From positions 62,001 to 126,000 of the forward strand of contig NZ_JAANPA010000001.1 in NCBI RefSeq assembly GCF_011320075.1: a DNA stretch of 64,000 nucleotides. Reading direction: 5' to 3'. The DNA comes from Sphingosinicella sp. YJ22 (GTDB lineage Bacteria; Pseudomonadota; Alphaproteobacteria; Sphingomonadales; Sphingomonadaceae). The translations under genes and the position numbers were made by a program. Below, piece by piece: positions 4,772 to 24,370 of this stretch; position 1 is the stretch's first letter; every line of letters starts with the position of its first letter. The notes under the pieces are model-generated. The model ran no database searches and had not been told where the DNA came from. It saw only the letters and a list, made by a program, of their open reading frames with translations.

Positions 4772-5149
4772 ATGCGCAAGACGGTCCTGGCGCTTGTCGC
4801 CGCGAGCTTCGCCGGCGTCGCCGCCGCTCAGCCGCCGCGCGAGCTTCCGAGCGACGACGGCTATGGCAGCGAGCTTCCCGAAGGCGCCGCCAATCTCGAC
4901 TTCATCCTGGTCAACCGCACCGGCGAGACGATCACCGCGGTCAGCATCAGGCCTTCGGGCGAGGACTCGCCGTGGAGCGCCGACATCCTCGTCCAGCGCG
5001 TGGTGCCGTCGGGCGAGCGCGCCGCCGTCTCCTACACCCGCGACATCGAGCTGTGCCGCTGGGACGTCCGGGCCACCTACGCCAACGGCGACCGCCGCAC
5101 CTGGCCGTTGATCAACCTCTGCCGAACGGTGCGGGTCGAACTGAGATAG
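4772..5149 (+). CDS. exported protein of unknown function
   Basis: The 125-residue product starts with a clear Sec signal peptide, probably cleaved after GVAAAQ near residue 21. The mature part has the pattern FILVNRTG, then SPWSADIL, CRWDV and INLC. It looks like a small beta-rich secreted domain with two conserved cysteines that may pair. I have seen this pattern in unnamed proteobacterial exported proteins but know no function for it. The start ATG follows a very strong GGAGGAGGGGG site that can be folded into a hairpin. It lies 29 bases after bkdB and may be read from the same transcript. Confidence 0.7.
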   Translation: MRKTVLALVAASFAGVAAAQPPRELPSDDGYGSELPEGAANLDFILVNRTGETITAVSIRPSGEDSPWSADILVQRVVPSGERAAVSYTRDIELCRWDVRATYANGDRRTWPLINLCRTVRVELR

Positions 5150-5151
5150 TG

Positions 5152-5210
5152 CCTCCCCAAGCGCATGCGCTTGGGGAGGGGGACCATCCGCAAAGCGGAT
5201 GGTGGAGGGG
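5152..5210 (+). repeat. double-hairpin repeat, copy 1
   Basis: Hairpin A is a perfect 28-bp palindrome at 5152-5179, with outer arms CCTCCCC and GGGGAGG. Hairpin B is at 5183-5203 (ACCATCCGC, AAA, GCGGATGGT). GGAGGGG follows at its right end. The outer sequences are shared with the copies at 5581, 24235 and 24311, whereas the inner stem and loop bases differ. Confidence 0.8.
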
Positions 5211-5213
5211 TAG

Positions 5214-5567
5214 TTAGCCCGAACACGCCTCCACGATTCCGGCGATCGCCTCTGCCGGATCCGAAAGCACCGCTGCTGCAGGCACGCGCATGGTCCGAAG
5301 CCCGAGCTGCGCTACCTGCCAGTCGCGCCGCTCATCCCGCGTCGCGCGCTCGCCGCGATCATGCGCCTCGCCGTCCACCTCGATGACCAGCTTGGCGGCG
5401 GGACAGTAGAAATCGGCGATGAAGCCCAGGATCGGGTGCTGGCGCCGGAATTTGTAGCCGCCGGGTCGCTTCCGCAACTCCTCCCAGAGCAGGCCTTCCG
5501 GCAGGCTCATGGTCCGGCGCAGCTCACGGGCTTTGATGATCGTCGGATTACCGGTCCTTTTCATCAT
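5214..5567 (-). CDS. DUF559 (VSR-like endonuclease fold) protein
   Basis: The 117-residue product is a DUF559 protein, a family related to the very-short-patch-repair endonuclease fold. The family features visible are LWEELRKRPGGYKFRRQHP at about residues 27-46, the acidic core FIADFYCPAAKLVIEVDGEAHD at about 49-70 and RDERRDWQ near residue 77. The last region, GLRTMRVPAAAV near residue 89, matches the end of the fold. The Asp/Glu of the core would be the metal ligands if it is a nuclease. The gene stands alone between inverted double-hairpin repeats and points toward copy 1. Its start ATG lies only 13 bases from copy 2. A role in spreading or processing the repeats is a guess from position; a host DNA-repair role is the alternative. 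Confidence 0.8.
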   Translation of the reverse strand: MMKRTGNPTIIKARELRRTMSLPEGLLWEELRKRPGGYKFRRQHPILGFIADFYCPAAKLVIEVDGEAHDRGERATRDERRDWQVAQLGLRTMRVPAAAVLSDPAEAIAGIVEACSG

Positions 5568-5580
5568 CTTCCTCCCTTTT

Positions 5581-5635
5581 ACCCCTCCACCATCCTGCGG
5601 ATGGTCCCCCTCCCCATGCCGTCGGCATGGGGAGG
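5581..5635 (-). repeat. double-hairpin repeat, copy 2 (inverted)
   Basis: On the plus strand hairpin B comes first (5589-5605, ACCATCC and GGATGGT around TGC) and hairpin A second (5609-5635, arms CCTCCCCATGCC and GGCATGGGGAGG around GTC). Order and orientation are the reverse of copy 1, so hairpin A is on the outside of both copies. Confidence 0.8.
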
Positions 5636-24234: not shown

Positions 24235-24291
24235 CCTCCCCGCCGCGCAGCGGTGGGGAGGGGGACCATCCGCTTAGTGGATGGTGGAGGG
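24235..24291 (+). repeat. double-hairpin repeat, copy 3
   Basis: Hairpin A is at 24235-24261 (arms CCTCCCCGCCGC and GCGGTGGGGAGG around GCA) and hairpin B at 24264-24284, ending in GGAGGGG. Same outer sequences and order as copy 1 at 5152; one mismatch in each stem is of the type tolerated as G-U in RNA. Confidence 0.8.
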
Positions 24292-24310
24292 GTATTCGGG
24301 TGAGGGTTAC

Positions 24311-24370
24311 CCCTCCACCATCGCCTCGCGGCGACGGTCCCCCTCCCCGTGAGCGCCGCTCACGGGGAGG
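24311..24370 (-). repeat. double-hairpin repeat, copy 4 (inverted)
   Basis: Hairpin B is at 24317-24338 and hairpin A at 24342-24370 (arms CCTCCCCGTGAG and CTCACGGGGAGG). It faces copy 3 across about 20 bases, in the same arrangement as copies 1 and 2 but without a gene between them. The pair lies between rplY and the TraB/GumN gene. Confidence 0.8.

Follow-up and report, generated by a model that had tools for sequence, protein, structure and literature searches.

Introduction

Repeats of the REP type occur widely in bacteria, and the only enzymes that we know to be associated with their dissemination are the RAYT tyrosine transposases. Homing endonuclease genes are selfish genes that include a Vsr-related EDxHD type, of which I-Bth0305I is an example. 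REPs, RAYTs and REPINs are described in three papers (PMC3733652, PMC8266576, PMC8049555), and a match between enzyme and repeat is reported there for TnpA-REP (PMC8266576). The RIME elements of Rhizobium are intergenic palindromic repeats of unknown function (PMC2573895). A DUF559 protein of Caulobacter, VsrA, is linked in PMC12907096 to the SOS or DNA damage response and to a cytosine methyltransferase. Searches of the open-access literature on REP, RAYT, REPIN and RIME brought up no link to DUF559 among the papers listed, and none that joined Vsr with extragenic palindromes. The open-access literature, a scope that leaves out most subscription journals and bioRxiv, also yielded no earlier description of the DUF559 units presented here; one may exist.

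Results

The window is a stretch of 64,000 nucleotides from the genome of Sphingosinicella sp. YJ22 (G000; 2.97 Mb, 82 contigs). It contains the following features:

5152..5179, no strand: hairpin A of the left end, outermost (sequence; folds as a hairpin)
5183..5203, no strand: hairpin B of the left end (sequence; folds)
5204..5212, no strand: inner arm of the left end, GGAGGGGTA (sequence)
5214..5567, minus strand: gene for a DUF559 (PF04480) Vsr-like PD-(D/E)xK nuclease of 117 amino acids (Pfam 2.7e-24; relative of PDB 3hrl, 8e-13)
5580..5588, no strand: inner arm of the right end, inverted, TACCCCTCC (sequence)
5589..5605, no strand: hairpin B of the right end (sequence; folds)
5609..5635, no strand: hairpin A of the right end, outermost (sequence; folds)
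24235..24370, no strand: cargo-free (empty, REPIN-like) unit with both ends face to face and a 17-nt inner spacer (sequence, fold, pattern match)

Each end of the unit at 5152-5635 is composed of the outer hairpin A, the inner hairpin B and a short arm, and the two ends mirror each other. Both ends fold into two hairpins, with DNA z-scores of -8.6 and -5.7. The convergent neighbouring genes have their stops at 5149 (+) and 5641 (-), and the unit therefore fills the intergenic gap. Sequence and folding thus confirm the original observation of a DUF559 gene that lies between inverted double hairpins, with hairpin A outermost, and occupies the gap between convergent genes. The same repeats had been noticed face to face without cargo at 24235-24370. 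They are present there, as is evident from the sequence and from the pattern match with an inner spacer, and this unit folds with a z-score of -8.2. Its designation as an empty version of the first unit holds in the sense of a cargo-free unit, but not in the sense of a site shown to have lost its gene.

The protein encoded at 5214-5567 matches the Pfam family DUF559 with 85.6 bits against a cut-off of 20.6, and its relative 3hrl is a solved structure of an "endonuclease-like protein". An alignment of 31 close sequences shows no variation at E24, D52, E63, D65, G66 and H69 (window numbering), a set that includes the putative catalytic residues. Among 18 diverse DUF559 sequences, E24, E63, D65, G66 and H69 are invariant and D52 is nearly so. 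The Pfam score above the cut-off and the conserved acidic and histidine residues place the protein among the DUF559, Vsr-like PD-(D/E)xK nucleases. The dN/dS ratio ranged from 0.13 to 0.32 in the 22 pairs with a value (30 of 68 pairs were printed, of which 8 were saturated), and synonymous sites are near saturation in this comparison. The DUF559 genes look as if they are maintained as functioning nucleases. The likeliest role of the protein would be that of a dedicated nuclease acting on the ends of its own unit.

At least 18 cargo-free face-to-face units, including the one at 24235-24370, are present in the genome of the window. The exact motif CCCCTCCACCATC occurs four times in the window, only within the two units listed above, and 13 times in the whole genome, compared with no occurrence of the reversed control. 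The motif GGGGAGGGGGACC is present in 64 copies, compared with two for its reversed control. This latter motif was found in 30 genomes, nine of which were listed with a total of 150 motif places. Facing pairs were counted for 141 of these places, situated in seven of the nine genomes; the nine omitted places stand alone on their contigs, and the other 21 genomes lie outside the count. There are 41 facing pairs less than 3 kb apart, 35 of them with a distance of 69-109 bp and six with a distance of 405-447 bp. All six gene-sized pairs enclose a DUF559 gene and the other 35 are empty; a third kind of facing pair below 3 kb was not found among the 41 pairs of the seven genomes. The facing motif pairs thus occur in two discrete states, empty or gene-sized with DUF559. 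At a separate locus (L093, 12207-14032), two empty type-A units surround a single ordinary gene of 1.6 kb, possibly a captured cargo.

The genome of the window carries six DUF559 genes, and reading of their flanks showed all six to be bracketed by inverted repeats. These repeats are of three kinds: four genes are bracketed by the kind seen in the window and two by other kinds. For larger samples, the 250 nt before a gene were scored for an inverted match with the 250 nt after it, and a gene was regarded as flanked at a score of at least 18. The family sample consisted of 35 DUF559 loci and 80 stretches of at most 20 kb, with weak, fragmentary and last-listed matches left out. In this sample 83 of the 117 testable DUF559 domains are flanked by inverted repeats. 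The corresponding figures are 5 of 1039 for control genes of the same stretches and 2 of 8539 for random segments of 315 bp. Among loci close to the type of the window in named genomes, 61 of the 77 testable ones (of 80) reached a score of 18, compared with none of 127 control genes. The 16 low-scoring loci include some with repeats on both sides and diverged loops and others with repeats on one side only. The enrichment of DUF559 genes between inverted copies, suggested originally as a check, is strongly borne out.

The DUF559 domains divide into two groups. A DUF559 clade of 21 members (support 99) contains no flanked locus, one of the 21 having masked bases upstream, and the remaining domains are flanked in 83 of 96 cases, which leaves 13 of 96 without a strong inverted match. 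This clade is probably a vertically inherited, non-mobile form of DUF559. Its members, which make up most of L103-L128, have an N-terminal extension and occur once per genome among the loci examined.

Flanked DUF559 genes were also found outside the family sample. An additional set of 53 entries was chosen for the best score in the phylum sample or for high copy number; two genes are represented twice and one broken gene accounts for two entries. In this set 34 entries reached a score of 18 and 19 remained below. All eight DUF559 genes examined in one genome (G082) are flanked, by several kinds of repeats. In a plasmid collection, 18 loci were examined out of 36 matching records; 11 of them, including three from Deinococcus and one from the cyanobacterium Pseudanabaena, reached 18, and 7 were below. 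The Deinococcus ends have the hairpin inside and the arm outside, so their order differs from that of the unit in the window. The Pseudanabaena locus (L352) has the DUF559 domain and the inverted flanks within one long annotated reading frame. At two further cyanobacterial loci (L353 and L354), the gene next to DUF559 is BREX pglX or encodes DUF1156, which may indicate a defence context. In Sinorhizobium (L188 and L191), a DUF559 gene stands between inverted units, some 114-130 nt long, which we take to resemble RIME elements; in S. meliloti Ak57 these RIME-like units measure about 114 nt.

In a tree of 118 DUF559 domains, the repeat kinds track the clades across genera. The tree distance was compared with the similarity of the repeats for 76 of the 118 loci, those with ends scoring 16-60 within 130 nt of the domain, the others being dropped. 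Over these 76 flanked loci from 37 genomes the Spearman correlation was -0.52, calculated on matched repeat segments only, and none of 999 shuffles of paralogues within genomes was as extreme. With pairs that have a homologous flanking gene dropped, the correlation was -0.49, again with none of 999 shuffles as extreme. Extension of the ends by 45 nt inward gave -0.60, a value that possibly includes coding DNA. Among the 139 closest DUF559 pairs, the two members have a flanking gene in common in 56 cases and none in common in 83.

The type-A DUF559 clade has 36 members (support 99). At least three type-A motifs are present in 17 of the 25 genomes with a DUF559 gene of this clade, compared with 7 of the 34 genomes without it (Fisher p 4e-4). 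One of the seven exceptions carries 108 copies. The exceptions count against a strict dependence of type-A motifs on the clade, and they indicate that the repeats can persist, and perhaps spread, without the cognate DUF559. A second kind of repeat had few copies across 59 genomes and no clean link to a clade when judged by eye.

Whole units have dispersed to different sites. In one genome (G045) three DUF559 units are present at distant places. Two of them, situated in unrelated contexts, have 97.9% identity over 516 bp; between the third and the first, the identity is 91.6% over 510 bp. The second and third units share about 170 nt more downstream and may therefore lie in another repeat. A clean empty site for two of these sites was not found in five genomes of the genus: the left flank of the first site is not common to the relatives, and at the second two relatives have about 1.1 kb of other sequence. 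In a genome of another genus (G253), two units 5.7 kb apart are 86% alike over 589 bp, and one of the two adjoins a DNA ligase gene, where it fills a junction of about 0.6 kb. Among the best 30 of the 143 genomes with a match to this junction, DUF559 is present in G253 and G612. In 11 loci the genes are separated by 5-16 nt, and the remaining 17, one of them from the second nearest relative (G645, 1.4 kb), show other spacings and no DUF559. The approximately 100-nt ends of the unit beside the DNA ligase gene (L136/L252) match nearly letter for letter, so this unit is probably recent.

Several units interrupt gene clusters. S. parapaucimobilis has DUF559 units that split the pnt and suf operons, and one Deinococcus has a unit between paaD and paaZ. 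Two Deinococcus records carry a unit at different junctions of an hpa cluster; the junction that holds it in NW-56 is closed in D. proteolyticus. At the pntAA/pntAB junction (L192-L221, L190), DUF559 was found in one of 28 testable best relatives, two of the 30 being clipped, and, by coordinates, in six or more others (G016, G026, G028, G033, G050 and G187). The presence of DUF559 there in several genomes marks the junction as a favoured or an old site. Several DUF559 loci at this junction have repeats on one side only. As a separate observation, 12 of the 28 testable relatives hold 337-852 bp without DUF559 between these two transhydrogenase genes, for which others have a distance of 17-94 bp; the junction looks like an insertion hot spot.

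No target-site duplication beyond chance was detected at 81 flanked loci, where the longest shared word had a mean length of 3.52 compared with 3.43 after shuffling. An 8-bp direct repeat around a G253 unit was set aside for this reason. The site on an Azospirillum plasmid is occupied in all seven Azospirillum records found, which offered no empty site, and the S. meliloti site, most of which is covered by one record, offered none either.

The protein of the right neighbour of the unit in the window was found in 26 of 26 genomes of the genus, the window's own included. Within 1.5 kb on either side of it, neither the left neighbour and its preceding gene nor the DUF559 of the window had a match in the other loci of the genus, three of which are clipped. 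The 3′ end of this right-hand gene was testable in 24 loci of the genus, with three clipped. Two of the 24 have an empty motif pair (93 bp apart in G318 and 73 bp in G316), one (G320) has a single exact end, and 21 have no exact motif; in the window the pair is 430 bp apart. Since the far neighbour was not found, the loci are not fully orthologous, and each of the two empty units may have arrived independently or be the product of a loss. Loss and separate arrival fit the empty units at 2 of 24 loci equally well. Three states, occupied, empty and absent, are therefore seen next to the same gene, but not at one orthologous site. For the originally suggested comparison of occupied and empty sites in relatives, another genus offers a precise contrast of an occupied with a nearly closed junction, at the locus of G253.

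The Pfam profile of the RAYT family, Y1_Tnp (PF01797), had no match in the genome of the window. RAYT-driven repeats were accordingly rejected for this genome, and a RAYT is not likely to be the present mover there. PF01797 matches were found in 12 of 59 family genomes; two repeat-rich genomes, G042 and G012, had no match to a Y1 transposase. The suggestion that DUF559 may play a part similar to that of a RAYT gains indirect support from the correspondence of clade and repeat and from the lack of a Y1 match in the window's genome; that DUF559 itself does the moving is an inference.

Discussion

The association of DUF559 with inverted repeats and the dispersal of the units are well supported. 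The unit at 5152-5635 is probably a mobile element of about 0.48 kb that resembles a REPtron and uses a Vsr-like nuclease as its enzyme, the empty units being its non-autonomous copies. Like a REPtron, it has a gene flanked by inverted palindromic repeats that are scattered in the genome. It also shares with the REPtron and the REPIN the many cargo-free paired units, the several repeat families per genome and the match between enzyme and repeat. Unlike the HUH Y1 transposase of a REPtron, its enzyme is a PD-(D/E)xK Vsr-like nuclease. In the ends of DUF559 units that were inspected by eye, neither a GTAG nor a CGTC tag was noticed. Homing endonuclease genes may be similar, as small selfish nuclease genes of a related fold, and the DUF559 units may likewise spread by cut and copy. 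They differ from homing endonucleases in occupying many unrelated sites and in having hairpin ends of their own. A conserved target site was not noticed; in 83 of the 139 closest DUF559 pairs the members have no flanking gene in common, yet the pnt junction is reused in several genomes. With MITEs and insertion sequences the DUF559 units have in common the short length, the inverted ends and the existence of shorter non-autonomous forms, but they have neither a DDE transposase nor a detectable target-site duplication.

We propose that the DUF559 protein would recognise its cognate hairpin ends, either as single-stranded hairpins or as cruciforms, and would cut at or near them. Host replication or repair would then copy the unit to a new place, and the target would not be duplicated. 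Such an element would be the counterpart of the RAYT/REP system run by an unrelated nuclease. We know of no strand-joining chemistry of a PD-(D/E)xK nuclease by itself, and this counts against DUF559 as the mover.

The DUF559 protein could instead be a housekeeping partner, retained next to its cognate repeats, whose hairpins and mismatches it would nick or repair in gene conversion or cruciform processing, with the repeats spreading by other means. The purifying selection on DUF559, the repeats found without a cognate DUF559 in 7 of 34 genomes, and the links of Caulobacter VsrA with a cytosine methyltransferase and with the response to DNA damage (PMC12907096) agree with such a role. We nevertheless consider it unlikely, given that gene-bearing units disperse as near-identical blocks, split operons and fill an otherwise nearly closed junction, and that all eight examined DUF559 genes of G082 are flanked, by several repeat kinds. 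It is less likely still that the repeats move by an unrelated host or transposase route with DUF559 as a frequent cargo. The ordinary gene bracketed by type-A units at L093 and the 5 of 1039 control genes between inverted repeats would be explained in this way, but the gene-sized facing pairs examined hold DUF559 in six of six cases, a correspondence of clade and repeat is not expected of random cargo, and the genomes G000, G042 and G012 have no Y1 transposase match.

A regulatory function without mobility, in which the repeats around DUF559 would act as bidirectional terminators or as hairpins that stabilise mRNA, is suggested by the position of a hairpin-forming unit between convergent genes at 5152-5635. 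This explanation is highly improbable in view of the near-identical dispersed copies with unrelated flanks, the occupied as opposed to nearly closed sites, the insertions inside operons and the rarity of similar flanks at other genes (5 of 1039).

Returning to the mobile element, the recurring pairing in many bacteria, in which branches of the enzyme tend to keep their own type of repeat, suggests an overlooked tiny mobile element. There is about an even chance that these units form a separate class, in which hairpin ends are spread by the lone Vsr-family PD-(D/E)xK nuclease to which they belong, instead of by a DDE, HUH, serine or tyrosine enzyme. This class would be the source of many unexplained families of palindromic repeats in Pseudomonadota, would reach Deinococcota and cyanobacteria, and could have many cognate pairs per genome. 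The finding is also relevant to the interpretation of DUF559 proteins as nucleases of mismatch repair (PMC12907096). If the proposal is true, the repeat families of genomes that lack RAYTs would find their explanation in a second and unrelated family of enzymes with cognate repeats, and an independent case of co-evolution of gene and repeat would be at hand. DUF559, a family of unknown function so far, would then gain a testable role.
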